DNA of 23,132 nucleotides from a virus: positions 1 through 23,132 of IMG/VR virus record IMGVR_UViG_3300034198_025411; one strand, written 5' to 3'. Each line of letters opens with the position of its first letter. The first letter of the stretch is position 1. The translations under genes were made by a program, and so were the position numbers. Under the pieces are notes generated by a model. The model did not search any database and was not told where the DNA came from. It was given only the letters and a program-made list of their open reading frames with translations. This document shows positions 16,553 to 21,917 of this stretch, in pieces.

Positions 16553-16759
16553 CTATAGGCTAGCATGGGGTTTTGGTAGCCAGGCGGTAACGACGAAGGC
16601 GATCGACCCGTTGGCCGTCACAGAGCGCCTAGGAGCTCCTACTCGAGGGTACCTAGAGCGCAGATCATCCTGCGCTATGCCAAAAGAGGCATAGGTCTTG
16701 CCCTCCATCGCCCACGCCCCTCCGTGGTATTCGATCACCACGTCGACGCTAGAGGTCAC
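16553..16759 (-). CDS. Small protein of unknown function, 68 aa
   Basis: The GTG start has GGAGGGAG about 8 nt upstream and overlaps the end of the ParB-like paralogue by 11 nt, supporting a coupled gene. The protein is compact, with VDVVIEYHGGAWAMEGKTYASF and an FVVTAWLP strand, suggesting a small alpha/beta or beta fold. I recognise no family. It belongs to the same transcript as its neighbours. Confidence 0.6.
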   Translation of the reverse strand: MTSSVDVVIEYHGGAWAMEGKTYASFGIAQDDLRSRYPRVGAPRRSVTANGSIAFVVTAWLPKPHASL

Positions 16760-17303
16760 GCTTGCTCTCCCTCCACTCGTGAGCCAGAGACGAGAGCCAG
16801 TCCGGGTTAGCCTTCTCCTGTAGTAGGGCCTGATGAGCCCAGGAAGCGCCGGCGTAGAACCCCCTGAGCAGAGCCTGCTCCTCGCTCGTCATCTTGCTGC
16901 GCTGCTTCATCGATCTAATGACGGGCAGGCTGCTGATCGGAGCAGGATGGCCCTTCTTCCGCATCTCTACGATCTCCAGAGCAGCCGCAGCCCTGAGTCT
17001 TCCGGCCGATACCTCGTTGCGTAGATCCTCCATCTCAGGTGGCGCGAGTTCGCGCGCTACCTGCACCCGACGATAGAAGGTCCTGCGGGCCTGGTTGGTT
17101 GACTTAGCCAGGGCGTTCATCGAGATGTTGCCACCTCTTCCGGCTTGCAGTAGCGCGATCAGGCGGGCGTTGAGAACGCCCGCCGAGTAGTCATCCAGCT
17201 TTCTGGTTCGCAGAGCCAGCAAGATCGTCTCTAACTCTTGCCTGCGCTCTTCGTCACCCAACTGTTCCAGTAGATGCTGGTCGCCTGGTTCTTTATCTTT
17301 CAT
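16749..17303 (-). CDS. Truncated ParB-like DNA-binding protein lacking the N-terminal ParB domain
   Basis: The protein (184 residues from the ATG at 17301-17303) shares with the full ParB-like protein at 21082-21861 the linker R-x-LDDYSAG-x-x-N and a helix-turn-helix region ending TF-x-RRV-x-x-A-x-LA, then R-x-x-x-x-x-G (residues about 34-112). The N-terminal nuclease/CTPase-like domain is absent and replaced by about 30 charged residues. The C-terminal third (113-184) is unique. A longer start at a TTG (17331-17333) is possible, but the ATG is preferred. It may bind the same DNA sites as its paralogue and modulate it; this is inference from shared sequence and from the shared upstream site at 17523-17554. 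Confidence 0.75.
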   Translation of the reverse strand: MKDKEPGDQHLLEQLGDEERRQELETILLALRTRKLDDYSAGVLNARLIALLQAGRGGNISMNALAKSTNQARRTFYRRVQVARELAPPEMEDLRNEVSAGRLRAAAALEIVEMRKKGHPAPISSLPVIRSMKQRSKMTSEEQALLRGFYAGASWAHQALLQEKANPDWLSSLAHEWRESKRDL

Positions 17304-17433
17304 AAAAGTATGGTATCCCTCTCTATTTTTCAATATCTCAAAAAAACTACGACTACTTAGAACTTCTCATCTCTCTATAGGGGTAACGCGCGCGCGATAA
17401 CAGAACTACACTAGGTTGTCCACGGCTTTTGAC

Positions 17434-17522: not shown

Positions 17523-17554
17523 TGCCAGCGTGGCACAAGTGCCATCATGGCACA
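17523..17554. promoter_or_regulatory. Tandem TGCCA-N3-TGGCA site, copy 1
   Basis: Two palindromes TGCCA-N3-TGGCA (17523-17535 and 17540-17552) are spaced 17 bp centre to centre, each followed by CA. The 32-bp block matches the one at 21932-21963 at 29 positions. It overlaps the stop codon of the CmoA-like gene and lies upstream of the truncated ParB-like gene. Because each ParB-like gene has such a block upstream, it is a candidate binding site for these proteins. Confidence 0.65.
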
Positions 17555-18282
17555 AGGTCGTTTCTCACAACCCAAACTCCCCAGTTGTACCAGCGGTAAG
17601 CCTCGAGGGGCGTACCCCATCCAGCGATCTCAAGCTGGCGCTTGAGATCGCCCGCTGTTCCGGGTCGCAGCACTCCTCTCAGGGCCCTAGCCTTGAGGCG
17701 GATGTCCTCTGCGTCTACGCCGTGCTGGGCCTTGTGGTCCCAGGTAGCCTCGTTCGCAATCTCCTGCCAGATGCCGGTGTCCAGTTCGATCTTCTCGGCT
17801 ACGATCAGCACTCCGGTCTCCGGCCTGCTTGCTTCGCGCATGGCGCGAAGCAAGCGCACCCGCTGGTGGGTAGGAACGAACTGCAGCGTAAACAGACACA
17901 GCGTGAGGTCCGCGGACGAGTGCTCTGCGTTCTCGAACACCAGATCGTTGGTGGATCCGTAGAAGGAGTGCGTGGTCTCCATGCCCTGAAACTTGAGCTG
18001 CGCGGCGTCAAGCATCGGCTGCTCTACGTCGTAGAGAAAGAAGTCCAGATGACGCTGGGGATGTCGATCAGCGATCATCTTCACCGTGGTTCCGGTAGCC
18101 GCCCCTACGTCGGCCACGATGCCGTGAGCCGGAGCGAACCAGTCGCTGAGGTGCACCACGAGCTCCTGAATCAACTGGTAGTTCGGGACGTGCACGCTGA
18201 CGTGCCCGTCGAAGGCCTCGACCACCTCGGGCGTAAAGGCCCACGCGCCGGAGTCGAAGTTCTTACTTACGTCGTCGCTCAT
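17545..18282 (-). CDS. CmoA-like SAM-dependent enzyme (candidate carboxy-SAM synthase)
   Basis: The 245-residue class I methyltransferase-fold protein aligns by eye along its whole length with E. coli CmoA (247 residues), which converts SAM and prephenate to carboxy-SAM. Shared points: W-x-F...V...F at 14-24, VP-x-Y (32-35), motif I DVGAATG (58-64), an acidic residue at 85 (LYD), FTLQF (131-135), EK (163-164), K184...G188, I194-x-x-K197 and L-x-x-AG (217-221). CmoA's Arg199, reported to hold the carboxylate of carboxy-SAM, appears to be Ala in my alignment, but the next residue is Arg (KAR at 197-199), so the exact register matters. A plain methyltransferase is the alternative. AAGGAGGT precedes the ATG. 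The gene directly follows the DNA cytosine methyltransferase. Confidence 0.8.
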   Translation of the reverse strand: MSDDVSKNFDSGAWAFTPEVVEAFDGHVSVHVPNYQLIQELVVHLSDWFAPAHGIVADVGAATGTTVKMIADRHPQRHLDFFLYDVEQPMLDAAQLKFQGMETTHSFYGSTNDLVFENAEHSSADLTLCLFTLQFVPTHQRVRLLRAMREASRPETGVLIVAEKIELDTGIWQEIANEATWDHKAQHGVDAEDIRLKARALRGVLRPGTAGDLKRQLEIAGWGTPLEAYRWYNWGVWVVRNDLVP

Positions 18283-18300: not shown

Positions 18301-19365
18301 TTACCTGCACTTGTCGAGCACTTCGGCCCGAAGGGTGTCCGCTACGGCCTTCATCATCAGCGGCGGCACCGATCGTCCCAGCCGCTCGCACCGCTGAGCG
18401 AAGGTACCGGTCAGCTCGAAGTCCTCGGGGAACGACGAGAGCAGCCGCAGTTCCCTGAGGTTGAACTTGCGCTTCTGCGACGGATGGCACACCGACGCCA
18501 TGCCCGTGTTGCCGATCATGGCCGTGATGGTGCCGACCGGGCGATCGACGTCGGGTCGGCACAGCTGAAAGTACTTATCGGACTTGCCGCCCATGGGCGT
18601 TCTCTCCCACTCGCGAGAGACCGCTCGACCGAGGGCCGTGCTCTCGCCCGTCTCGGCGTCCACGTACTCCTCCCGCTCCAGCACGTCGGGCAGAGCGTCC
18701 AGGAGCGTGAGCTGGGTGGAGAAGGGCTGCGGGTGCACCGGGGAGACGCCGTAGCGTTCGACGAGGTCGTTGCGTACTCCCACGAAGATGAGGCGGTTGC
18801 GCGCCTGCGGCACTCCGAGCCAGGATGCGTCCAGCATCCTGGCGCTCACCGCGTAGCCGCACCCCTTGAGCTCGGCCAGGATCTCCTTGAAGTATCCCTT
18901 CGCCTTGCCGGTGACGAGGCCGCTGACGTTCTCGGCCACGAAGGTCTTGGGCTGGAGGTCGCGGAGGATGCGCGAGTACTCGAAGAACAGATCGTCGGTT
19001 CGCTGCTTGGTATCGGAGTAGTCCTTCACCTTGCCCCAGCCCTCGGAGCGCTTTCCCGCGGTAGAGAAGGAGGCGCAGGGAGGAGAGCCCTCGAAGACGT
19101 CGACCTCGCGATGACCCACCACGCGCTGGATGTCGCTCGCCTGTACCTCGCGCACGTCACGATCGTCGAGGTAGACCCCGTCGTGGTTGAGGGCGTAGGT
19201 CGCTCGCGCCTCGGGCACGAACTCGAGCGCGTATCGCACGTCGTAGCCCGCCATCTCGAAGCCGAGGCACGACCCGCCGCACCCCGAGAAGGTAGAGACG
19301 ACCGTGTAGCCGTTGCTACCACGGATCGCTCGCACGTCGCCCATGCTCGGCAGGGAGTAGGTCAC
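18301..19365 (-). CDS. DNA cytosine-C5 methyltransferase with Arg in motif X
   Basis: The 354-residue protein has the C5 motifs in order: I, STFSGCGG (24-31); IV, GSPPCASFS with catalytic Cys97; VI, AENV (144-147); VIII, QARNRLIF (187-194); a target-recognition region at about 205-295; IX, LRELRLLSSFP (303-313); and X, LGRSVPP (329-335). In motif X the family normally has GNSV or GNAV; here Asn is Arg331 (codon 18373-18375). The GTG start at 19363-19365 overlaps the upstream stop as GTGA; a GTG six codons further upstream is possible. Normal activity would be cytosine methylation of phage DNA. With a CmoA-like neighbour and the Arg change, carboxymethyl transfer from carboxy-SAM is a real alternative. 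Confidence 0.93.
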   Translation of the reverse strand: MTYSLPSMGDVRAIRGSNGYTVVSTFSGCGGSCLGFEMAGYDVRYALEFVPEARATYALNHDGVYLDDRDVREVQASDIQRVVGHREVDVFEGSPPCASFSTAGKRSEGWGKVKDYSDTKQRTDDLFFEYSRILRDLQPKTFVAENVSGLVTGKAKGYFKEILAELKGCGYAVSARMLDASWLGVPQARNRLIFVGVRNDLVERYGVSPVHPQPFSTQLTLLDALPDVLEREEYVDAETGESTALGRAVSREWERTPMGGKSDKYFQLCRPDVDRPVGTITAMIGNTGMASVCHPSQKRKFNLRELRLLSSFPEDFELTGTFAQRCERLGRSVPPLMMKAVADTLRAEVLDKCR

Positions 19366-19478
19366 GGCTTCTTGCCCTTCCACCAGCTGATGAATGCCTC
19401 GATGGCGGCGGCTCCGATGCCGATCACCAGCACCACCTCCAGAAAGAACGCGGCCGCTCGGGCCCTCTCGTTGTTCAC
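19362..19478 (-). CDS. 38-residue membrane peptide in the modification operon
   Basis: A GTG start with AAGGAG 6 nt upstream leads a 38-codon frame encoding one hydrophobic segment (about 10-32) flanked by NNERAR and WWKGKK, which predicts a single-pass membrane peptide with a basic C-terminus. It is tightly packed: 3 nt after the amidotransferase stop and overlapping the methyltransferase start by GTGA. The function is unknown; it may serve mainly to couple translation, or have a separate membrane role. Confidence 0.6.
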   Translation of the reverse strand: MNNERARAAAFFLEVVLVIGIGAAAIEAFISWWKGKKP

Positions 19479-19481
19479 CTC

Positions 19482-20864
19482 TTACTCCTTTGGCAGAAAG
19501 CCGAAGAGCTCGCGAGCCTCGGCGTTGTAGTGCTTGGTGGGGGAGTTGATGAAGTCTCCCACGGCGGCGGCGATGCCCGTGCCGCCCTGAAAGGTGTCCT
19601 TCTTGCGGCGAATCACGTAGGCCGGCAACCCACGCCGGTACGCGGCTGCCTTGAGCACCTTCTTGCCGGGCGGGTTGCTCGCCTTCGTCGAGGCCAGCGC
19701 CGCGGCCACGAGTCCCTCCTCCATAAAGGGCAAGCGCCCCTCCACTCCGGCGGCCATCATCACCTTGTTCACGCGCACGAAGTTGCCGCGCGACATCTTG
19801 TCGACGGCCCGTCGGATGACCTCCTGGTACTCGACATCACTCTGCGCTCGCCCCGCCGCCATCATCATGTTGCCGTAGCCGCAGAACAGCTCGTCGGCCG
19901 CCTCGCCCGACAGGGCCACGCGGTAACCGTCGGAGGCGACGGCACGCATCAGAGGCAGGTGCGCCATGGCGATCTCCACCTGGGCCTTCATGGGCACCTC
20001 TACGGCGGCCACCGCGTCGGCGATCAACCGCGGGGTGGGCCGCGGGACCTGCACCTCCACCAGGGGGACGTCGAGCTCCAGCGCGACGCGCCTCGCCATG
20101 GCTAGGTCGTCTGACTGGGTGTCGTACACGGCCGTGTAGGCCACGGGCTCGGGGTGCAGCTCCTTGGCCAGGGATAGGACGAGCGAGGAGTCGAGGCCCC
20201 CCGAGAGCAGAAAGCAGACGGGGCGGTCGGAGATCAGCCGCTTACGCACGCCCTCGCGTAGCATGGCTAGGACGCCCTCTGGCTCGCACGGTGGTGCCAC
20301 GACGCCCGCGTCCCATCGCACGACCTCGCCCGTGGCGAGCCGCACGGCGCAGCCAGGCGGCACGGCCTTCGGCCGCACTCCCCACGAGAGGTCGAACGCC
20401 TTGAGCTCGGACGCGAAGACGTAGCCCCCGTCGTGCTCGGCGTAGTAGAGGGGGATCTTCCCGTACCGGTCACGGGCGAGCCACGCTCCGTCGCGTCCCT
20501 GCCACGCCATCGCGAACATGCCGTCAATCAGCCGAAGGCACGCTATTCCGACCTGGTCCAATAACCTAGCGATCGGCTCCGTATCCGAGGAACTCGTCCA
20601 GGGGAGGGAGTTTTGGTCGGGGGTAGCCTCCCGACGGAGCTCCTCCGGGTTCCACGCCTCTCCGTTGTACGCCAGGGTGACGTCCCCGTACCGGAAGGGC
20701 TGGGAGGCTGACCCCGAGGTATCCTGGATGGCTAGCCGGACGTGCCCCAGGAGAAGATCACTGGAGCGGCATGTGCCGCGCCCATCTGGTCCCCTGTGGG
20801 AGATTCGATCGAGCATGGCATCTACGTCTATCTCACAACGAAAGCTACCGGCGATACCGCACAT
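19482..20864 (-). CDS. AsnB-type glutamine-dependent amidotransferase
   Basis: The mature-type start MCGIAG exposes Cys2, the nucleophile of class II glutaminases. Other glutaminase residues are visible: Arg43 (HVRLAI), YNGE (66-69) and SSDTE (92-96). The synthetase half has the PP-loop SGGLDSS (221-227), LSGEAADELFCGY (318-330) and RRKKDTFQGGTG (419-430). Members ligate ammonia to an AMP-activated carboxylate, usually aspartate. At 460 residues it is shorter than E. coli AsnB (554). It overlaps the upstream zinc-ribbon gene as TGATG, so an N-terminal extension is not expected. Location among DNA-modification genes suggests that its substrate might be a carboxylated nucleobase, but asparagine synthesis or another ligase role cannot be excluded. 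Confidence 0.9.
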   Translation of the reverse strand: MCGIAGSFRCEIDVDAMLDRISHRGPDGRGTCRSSDLLLGHVRLAIQDTSGSASQPFRYGDVTLAYNGEAWNPEELRREATPDQNSLPWTSSSDTEPIARLLDQVGIACLRLIDGMFAMAWQGRDGAWLARDRYGKIPLYYAEHDGGYVFASELKAFDLSWGVRPKAVPPGCAVRLATGEVVRWDAGVVAPPCEPEGVLAMLREGVRKRLISDRPVCFLLSGGLDSSLVLSLAKELHPEPVAYTAVYDTQSDDLAMARRVALELDVPLVEVQVPRPTPRLIADAVAAVEVPMKAQVEIAMAHLPLMRAVASDGYRVALSGEAADELFCGYGNMMMAAGRAQSDVEYQEVIRRAVDKMSRGNFVRVNKVMMAAGVEGRLPFMEEGLVAAALASTKASNPPGKKVLKAAAYRRGLPAYVIRRKKDTFQGGTGIAAAVGDFINSPTKHYNAEARELFGFLPKE

Positions 20865-21085
20865 CAGCGCTTCCACTCGTGCTGGCAATCGGGGCAACGC
20901 CAAGCGACGGTGCGATCGAGGTGCCAGTCGTAGATCGCCTGCACTCGACTGAAGTGGTTGGGCTTCTTGCAGTCGCGGCAGGTCTTGGGATACCATCCCA
21001 TCTGAACGGAGAGCTGTGGGATGTCCCGTCCCACGAAGCTAGCGCTGCAGCTAGGGCAGGAGTGGGGGAGGATCTCGTGGTTCAC
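20864..21085 (-). CDS. Small zinc-ribbon protein, 73 aa
   Basis: Three C-x2-C pairs (Cys10/13, Cys36/39, Cys64/67) suggest one or more zinc knuckles. The last pair, WRCPDCQHEW, closely resembles YRCPKCQYEW at the C-terminus of the ParB-like protein encoded just upstream. The GTG start at 21083-21085 overlaps the upstream stop as GTGA; longer GTG starts exist but lack this coupling. A DNA-binding or scaffold role for the modification genes is plausible; no known family is certain. Confidence 0.7.
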   Translation of the reverse strand: MNHEILPHSCPSCSASFVGRDIPQLSVQMGWYPKTCRDCKKPNHFSRVQAIYDWHLDRTVAWRCPDCQHEWKR

Positions 21086-21861
21086 CGCGGAGTGCCGCTC
21101 CACTCGTACTGGCACTTGGGGCAGCGGTACTCGGTCTTGATGTCCTCGTCGAACTCCTTGAAAACCGGCGGCTTTGCAGGCTCGGCGGAGGGGGCGGTGT
21201 CCTCGCCCTCGAGGCCCACGTCCTGCCCGTCGGTCTCGGGACCGCCCTGCCAGCCGACCTTGAGCTCGCGCGGCTCGAGCACGGCTGCCTCGGGAAGGGT
21301 TTCGATGCTCTCGTCGTCCTCGGGGCCAGCGACCTGGTGCAGGGCCTCCCGCGTGGAGATCTGCCCGGCGACGAGCTGCTCGCGCACCTCGGTGTGCTCC
21401 TCCTCGGCGAGGAGCTTGGCGAGGGCCACGCGACGCTGGAACGTGCGGAGGGACTGGCCCGCGAGCGCGGCGATCTCCGACGTGGTCTTCTGACCCACCG
21501 GTCGGCGACCCGGGCGCGACTCGATGCCGTAGAGCTCGAGGAGCTTGAGGTTCATCTGACCGGCCGAGTAGTCATCGAGCTGACGGCGCTGGGCGTTGAG
21601 CCCGATGGCGTCGATCATCTCCTCGTCGGTGAGCTCCTGCCCGACCCCCGACGCGTCGTCGTAGTACTTGGTGGTGGTCGGCATGTCGAGGCCGAGCTCG
21701 GCGGCGATGGTCGACCGGTAGTGGCCGTCGATGACGCGGCCGTGCTGGTTGAGCAGCACCGGCACCATGACGCCGTGTTCCCGGATCGATTCTCGCAGCG
21801 CTACGAGCTGCTCAGCGCTGAGCGGCGCCATGGGGTTGGGTCCGAGGGTGGTGGGCTCCAC
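21082..21861 (-). CDS. ParB-like nuclease/DNA-binding protein
   Basis: Residues about 14-90 have the ParB/Srx fold signature (PLSAEQLVALRESIREHG, PVLL, VIDGHYRSTIAAELGL). Residues about 93-177 hold the linker and helix-turn-helix (QLDDYSAG, AALAGQSLRTFQRRVALAKLL). The C-terminus is acidic and Pro-rich and ends with a half zinc ribbon (Cys247, Cys250). The GTG start at 21859-21861 is chosen because the promoter -10 lies at 21889-21894, so the longer ATG at 21895-21897 would be upstream of the transcript; AAGGAG lies 8 nt before the GTG. A hairpin (21864-21869 with 21881-21886) overlaps this ribosome site. Phage ParB-like proteins often accompany DNA methyltransferases. It probably binds the nearby tandem palindromes; inference. 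Confidence 0.85.
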   Translation of the reverse strand: MEPTTLGPNPMAPLSAEQLVALRESIREHGVMVPVLLNQHGRVIDGHYRSTIAAELGLDMPTTTKYYDDASGVGQELTDEEMIDAIGLNAQRRQLDDYSAGQMNLKLLELYGIESRPGRRPVGQKTTSEIAALAGQSLRTFQRRVALAKLLAEEEHTEVREQLVAGQISTREALHQVAGPEDDESIETLPEAAVLEPRELKVGWQGGPETDGQDVGLEGEDTAPSAEPAKPPVFKEFDEDIKTEYRCPKCQYEWSGTPR

Positions 21862-21888
21862 GTGGTCTCTCCTTCTTCGGGAGACCGC

Positions 21889-21917
21889 AGCATACATGCC
21901 CTACAGGGGCGTGTCAA
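21889..21917 (-). promoter_or_regulatory. Sigma70-type promoter of the modification operon
   Basis: On the minus strand, TTGACA (21912-21917, perfect -35) is followed after exactly 17 bp by TATGCT (21889-21894). The start of transcription would be near 21882, leaving a leader of about 20 nt with the AAGGAG of the ParB-like gene. The tandem palindrome block lies 14 bp upstream of the -35. Confidence 0.8.

Follow-up and report, generated by a model that had tools for sequence, protein, structure and literature searches.

A natural motif X arginine in a predicted phage cytosine carboxymethyltransferase encoded with a CmoA homologue and a glutaminase-type ligase

The stretch of DNA analysed here, subsequently designated the window, is a virus record of 23,132 bases that contains phage terminase, portal, capsid and endolysin genes. 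It is part of a tailed-phage genome carrying a probable DNA hypermodification cassette on the minus strand. A near search of the phage collection with the window itself gave no match. From position 21897 down to 17545 the cassette encodes, in this order, a ParB-like protein, a zinc-ribbon-like protein, an asparagine-synthetase-like ligase, a 38-aa ORF, a homologue of C5 methyltransferases (MTases) and a CmoA homologue (Table 1). The starts and stops of these genes overlap or nearly touch one another: GTGA overlaps are found between the ParB-like and zinc-ribbon-like genes and between the 38-aa ORF and the MTase gene, TGATG joins the zinc-ribbon-like gene to that of the ligase, and the CmoA gene follows 18 nt downstream of the MTase gene. 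The AsnB-like, glutamine-dependent ligase is accordingly encoded upstream of the MTase homologue, and the 38-aa ORF in between is presumably a gene, as judged by position and overlap alone. Outside the cassette, positions 1-2790 of the minus strand encode a long collagen-like protein with Gly-x-Thr repeats, which is open at the window edge.

Table 1. Positions of the cassette genes and associated features in the window
Feature	Position	Strand	Remarks
Second, shorter protein	16749..17333	-	matches part of the ParB-like protein with 36% identity over 106 aa
CmoA-family carboxy-SAM synthase homologue	17545..18282	-	PDB 1im8/4gek; TIGR00740; TurkishDelight gp125
CmoX-like DNA cytosine C5-carboxymethyltransferase	18301..19383	-	best match 8YF3 by sequence and fold; PF00145
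Motif X Arg codon (CGA)	18373..18375	-	equivalent to M.HhaI Asn304 and CmoX (S-B43) Arg350
SPPC codons with catalytic Cys (HhaI Cys81)	19075..19086	-	motif and HhaI alignment
Small hydrophobic ORF of 38 aa, located between the ligase and CmoX genes	19362..19478	-	stop overlaps CmoX start (GTGA)
Glutamine-dependent amide ligase, asparagine-synthetase-B-like (CmoY, glutaminase type)	19482..20864	-	N-terminal Cys2 glutaminase and SGGLDSS synthetase domain
Zinc-ribbon-like protein	20864..21115	-	stop overlaps ligase start (TGATG); C-terminal end AWRCPDCQHEWKR
ParB-like protein, C-terminal CPKCQYEWSG tail	21082..21897	-	same tail in ParB-like proteins encoded next to CmoX by other phages

A sequence-only reading of the window had drawn attention to a CGA codon that gives GRSVPP in motif X of the MTase homologue. 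Indeed, the minus strand reads CTG GGA CGA TCG GTG CCG CCG (L-G-R-S-V-P-P), with CGA at 18375-18373. The residue number 331 given for this Arg is right if translation starts at the GTG at 19365, which forms the GTGA overlap with the stop codon of the small ORF ahead of it; counted from the GTG at 19383, the same Arg is residue 337. We consider 19365 the more likely start. The other catalytic motifs (FSGCGG, SPPC, ENV, QARNR) are all present, as had been stated, and with ORF and motifs intact a decayed gene is ruled out. A chance substitution or a sequencing error is likewise ruled out, because the change from Asn (AAC/AAT) to CGA requires several base changes and because Arg is common to 137 of the 204 distinct relatives among the matches listed (see below). 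Alignment with M.HhaI places Asn304 of the latter on the window Arg, which bears out the column that had been proposed, and C81, E119 and R165 of M.HhaI fall on the C, E and R of the window enzyme.

The best sequence match in the PDB was 8YF3, the structure of CmoX from Synechococcus phage S-B43 with carboxy-SAM (Cx-SAM; E 4.2e-65, runner-up 2.3e-20). The window enzyme was modelled with AlphaFold2 (29 alignment rows, pLDDT 89.5), and in the fold search 8YF3 again ranked first (Z 38.9, rmsd 2.4 over 318 residues), followed by HaeIII (Z 32.0); M.MpeI (4DKJ) aligned to most of the model with Z 27.2. The window segment ERLGRSVPPLMMKAVA aligns without gaps to ERVGRMVPPLMMKAIA of 8YF3, in which the Arg is residue 350. 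The window enzyme has in common with S-B43 CmoX (SpCmoX) the C5-MTase fold, intact catalytic motifs including SPPC, the Arg in the column of HhaI Asn304 and SpCmoX Arg350, and the adjacent genes for CmoA, encoded in the same phage, and for an AsnB-like ligase. However, the two enzymes are only 36% identical by structure alignment, and the partner ligase of the window enzyme possesses a glutaminase domain. Their target-recognition regions have diverged and align poorly, and therefore the GC target of the S-B43 enzyme is not transferable to the window enzyme.

CmoX of S-B43 was described as a cytosine-C5-carboxymethyltransferase in Nat Commun in December 2025, together with structure 8YF3 (PMC12783734). 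It makes 5-carboxymethylcytosine from Cx-SAM supplied by a phage CmoA; Arg350 stands where HhaI has Asn304 and, in the structure, touches the carboxymethyl group of Cx-SAM, and while the wild-type enzyme accepts Cx-SAM only, the R350N variant accepts neither SAM nor Cx-SAM (PMC12783734). The authors listed 5,615 candidates with SPPC and Arg, and Arg350 mirrors the N374K substitution in M.MpeI, in which a basic residue in place of the motif X Asn likewise admits Cx-SAM (PMC12783734). The M.MpeI variant is engineered and has a CpG target, whereas the window enzyme is natural and carries Arg. The sequence-only reading had regarded a natural Arg beside a CmoA-like gene as nature's version of the M.MpeI change. 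As an interpretation this is supported by the match to 8YF3, the Arg column and the co-occurrence with CmoA; its novelty did not hold, and the window is not a first discovery, since the CmoX class was published with structure and biochemistry in late 2025 (PMC12783734). Besides this publication, our literature search listed none that deals with phage CmoA carboxymethyltransferases. The sequence-only reading had linked MTase and CmoA correctly but left the AsnB-like ligase out of account.

The neighbouring protein had been called CmoA-like, and it belongs to the CmoA family by PDB match, profile and phage relatives. Its best PDB matches are 1im8 (YecO) and 4gek, and a profile of phage CmoAs scored 187 bits against 4gek, compared to 85 for the next family. 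TIGR00740 is the best family for the window protein with 79 bits, which is below the cut-off of 193, as is the score of the active S-B43 CmoA (115.6 bits). The window protein is 48% identical to gp125 of phage TurkishDelight. The position of the active-site Arg of E. coli CmoA, which we take to be Arg199, is not Arg in the window protein; it does not discriminate, because the active S-B43 CmoA also lacks Arg there. By analogy, the window CmoA is predicted to synthesize Cx-SAM from SAM and prephenate, and window enzyme and CmoA very likely constitute a natural CmoX system, in which Cx-SAM would be used to produce 5-carboxymethylcytosine. Direct support comes from sequence and fold, the column of the residue, the operon and the co-occurrence, and the chemistry and the structure placing Arg on the carboxylate are those of the homologue (PMC12783734).

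The link between Arg and CmoA was surveyed in viral contig scans, a genome contig scan and records from the phage collection. Three of these scans each kept only the best 80 loci, which biases the collected enzymes towards near relatives. A scan of the viral contigs with a single CmoA protein found nothing, and the aligned CmoAs were too varied to serve as a query; partners of CmoA were therefore gathered from the phage collection and the CmoX loci. The 230 MTase matches comprised 204 distinct enzymes by their last 200 residues. Among these matches listed, the motif X residue was Arg (137 enzymes), Asn (52), Met (2) or Leu (1), and 12 were unreadable in this column; Lys did not occur there among the 204 relatives listed. 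In this survey, which the sequence-only reading had suggested, Arg tracks with CmoA: among the matches listed, CmoA was encoded in the same locus in 129/137 Arg cases and in 0/52 Asn cases, and in none of the three with Met or Leu. The matches listed include fairly close Asn-bearing relatives without CmoA, whose best segments show 44-46% identity to the window enzyme. The distance from CmoX to CmoA is no more than 2 kb in 126 of the 129 listed loci with Arg and CmoA, and the median gap is 0. The phage collection contained 817 records with a related MTase and 65 with a CmoA relative.

Arg was not frequent in enzymes lacking a CmoA neighbour. Only 8 of the 137 had no CmoA in the same locus; in two, CmoA is encoded elsewhere in the record (in the contig of L066, and ~17 kb away in the genome of L096), and six are fragments, of which two end at contig edges (L149, L171), two contain a ligase (L132, L158) and two are short contigs in which CmoA was not found (L062, L091). 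Two second MTases from the unread set (L022, L036) have Asn by eye, and their contigs also hold a CmoX-CmoA pair; this is not in conflict with the Arg-CmoA link. A C5 enzyme linked to CmoA does not always carry Arg, since two Staphylococcus phages (L102, 4998-6697; L103, 4998-7516) encode HhaI-like C5-MTases beside CmoA that carry VGG-VIN at motif X, i.e. neither Asn nor Arg. Both belong to the 12 unread enzymes and read Gly, and one is also accompanied by a short AsnB-like ligase. These enzymes possibly have another way of accepting Cx-SAM.

A Fisher value of 2e-38 reflects the raw counts and is not readable as a probability given the relatedness of the loci. A FastTree phylogeny was calculated for 175 enzymes after masking of the motif residue, leaving out short rows and scores below 200 bits. 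In scoring the presence of CmoA, seven edge loci were named for omission (L149, L171, L132, L158, L062, L091, L086) and L066 and L096 were set to present, such that 170/175 rows bear both traits. Arg/non-Arg changes six times on the tree, and so does the presence of CmoA. All pairs available for comparison showed CmoA either changing in the same direction as Arg or not differing. The sign test was not significant, because well-supported branches carry only two pairs, and independent evidence for the link is limited by the relatedness of the loci by descent.

These data bear on two alternatives. The window enzyme could be a conventional MTase that uses SAM to make 5-methylcytosine and tolerates the Arg, with CmoA as a passenger, and it indeed possesses all standard C5-MTase motifs and matches PF00145 and TIGR00675 well. 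However, its closest structure-bearing relative has the same Arg and refuses SAM (PMC12783734), and the distribution of CmoA over the listed Arg and Asn relatives speaks against a passenger, which makes this explanation very improbable. Even less credible is that CmoA and the ligase serve tRNA wobble modification with the DNA MTase as a chance neighbour. CmoA is known from cmo5U synthesis (PMC12783734) and phage annotations name it tRNA methyltransferase, but neither CmoB (PF08003) nor a tRNA gene is present in the window, which may be a fragment, and the proximity of CmoA to CmoX among the loci listed argues against chance.

The model of the third component, the ligase (pLDDT 91.6), has the two domains of an asparagine synthetase. 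Its best fold match is E. coli AsnB (1CT9, Z 43.5), with which the ligase shares the two-domain fold and the glutaminase and ATP sites. It has the N-terminal glutaminase domain with Cys2 and the conserved site of the CmoY glutaminase cluster. In all of 15 glutaminase-type ligases, C2, R43, N67, G68, E69 and D94 are invariant, as are the PP-loop (SGG.DS), E321, D324 and K422; the window ligase keeps the complete glutaminase site, the AsnB-like GExxDE and Lys422. The stretch DVTTIRAST of AsnB binds aspartate through Thr/Arg. In the window ligase it is replaced by MKAQVEIAM, of which K293, A294, Q295, E297 and I298 (K-A-Q-x-E-I) are invariant in 15/15 glutaminase-type ligases. The window ligase further differs from AsnB in missing the cut-off of the asparagine synthetase family TIGR01536 (250.2 vs 267.1 bits) and in that its gene adjoins CmoX.

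What this ligase attaches can be judged from its relatives. SpCmoY, a shorter ligase without glutaminase domain, attaches glycine; for a second cluster with this domain, from which no soluble ligase was obtained, ammonia was predicted as substrate (PMC12783734). Position 331 is Lys/Arg in 23/23 short-type ligases, one of which is SpCmoY, and Gly in 14/15 of the glutaminase type including the window ligase. From the sequences, Lys/Arg at 331 is a candidate contact to the glycine carboxylate that would be lost in the glutaminase type, which fits ammonia. Alternatively, CmoX could be real and the pathway could stop at bare 5-carboxymethylcytosine, or the ligase could add an amine other than ammonia. 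The glycine attached by SpCmoY is in line with this, and so is the finding of no ligase in the available DNA of 85 of the 129 listed Arg loci with CmoA, many of which are fragments; the ligase was of the glutaminase type in 18 of the others and of the short type in 26. The complete glutaminase site, GExxDE and Lys422, together with Gly331 in place of the putative contact, argue against it, and we regard this alternative as rather unlikely. On balance, use of ammonia by the window ligase is the somewhat favored reading.

The pathway would then proceed as follows. CmoA would convert SAM and prephenate to Cx-SAM. CmoX would flip out the cytosine, the SPPC cysteine would attack C6 and the carboxymethyl group of Cx-SAM would be moved to C5, yielding 5-carboxymethylcytosine; pairing of the motif X Arg with the carboxylate would cause Cx-SAM to be taken instead of SAM. 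The AsnB-like ligase probably adenylates the carboxylate of 5-carboxymethylcytosine with ATP and probably amidates it with glutamine-derived ammonia to give 5-carbamoylmethylcytosine. The tRNA wobble base ncm5U has the same side group. No paper naming the amide base was found among open-licence papers in PubMed Central. The modified DNA may be protected from host restriction.

The window ParB-like protein ends in DEDIKTEYRCPKCQYEWSGTPR. A same-strand ORF with such a CPxCxYEWSG tail lies within 5 kb of CmoX in 55/129 loci with Arg and CmoA, and within 5 kb in 3/8 other Arg loci and 6/55 non-Arg loci (matches listed); altogether the tail occurs in 67/15,715 near ORFs vs 0/10,420 ORFs further away. 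All these counts are descriptive, because the regular expression was built after the tail had been seen. Tail-bearing ParB-like proteins beside CmoX occur in the window (21082-21897), in L009, L029, L031, L058, L164, L166 and others. ParB-domain neighbours of CmoX without known function were noted in PMC12783734, the examined portion of which makes no mention of the tail. We tentatively propose, at slightly less than even chances for the combined statement, that the end product of the cassette is 5-carbamoylmethylcytosine formed by glutamine-dependent amidation and that the ParB-like protein with the CPxCxYEWSG tail is a dedicated partner bringing CmoX or the ligase to DNA.

The closest isolated relative in the phage collection is Streptomyces phage TurkishDelight (NC_073473). 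Its gp123-gp125 are likewise three adjacent genes for CmoX, a glutaminase-type ligase and CmoA, preceded by ParB-like genes, but the ligase gene follows that of CmoX, and identities are 50, 38 and 48% (CmoX, ligase, CmoA). The three are annotated only as methyltransferases and amidotransferase.

The survey also returned other CmoA-bearing loci. Gordonia phage Evaa (L013, 702-3952) encodes a CmoA homologue, 43% identical to that of the window, with a ParB-plus-methyltransferase-like protein (phrog_5475), and a PF00145 search of the whole record found no C5-MTase. A second case, also with CmoA, is L145 (5335-8148), whose protein is 69% identical to that of Evaa; further relatives occur in Pseudomonas and Aeromonas phages. 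This protein is a candidate for a different Cx-SAM-using partner. Alcaligenes phage Afa-NA1 (L104) has CmoA and D12-type adenine methylases and no PF00145 enzyme in its record; the closest relatives of the queried D12-type methylase sit in CmoA-bearing Erwinia and Dickeya phages. This enzyme could be an N6-adenine carboxymethyltransferase, or the association a coincidence. In Erwinia phage Alexandra (L096, 2986-5115), an intein-like insert (weak matches to PF14890 and PF13403) splits the CmoX-like gene directly ahead of the catalytic Cys, and many Erwinia and Dickeya jumbo phages give the same two-piece CmoX match. CmoX-CmoA pairs were also present in bacterial assemblies of Streptomyces, Nonomuraea and Bacteroidota (among L146-L188; L205, L220, L222), with several copies per bin in Verrucomicrobia. 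The two that were checked, L173 and L154, look like prophages, because both have portal genes nearby, joined in L173 by a terminase gene.

Taken together, the survey provides independent comparative support for the switch from Asn to Arg as a marker of DNA carboxymethyltransferases, for which the fairly close Asn relatives without CmoA serve as natural controls. The glutaminase-type ligases point to an uncharacterised end product, and with TurkishDelight an isolated phage carrying them is at hand.
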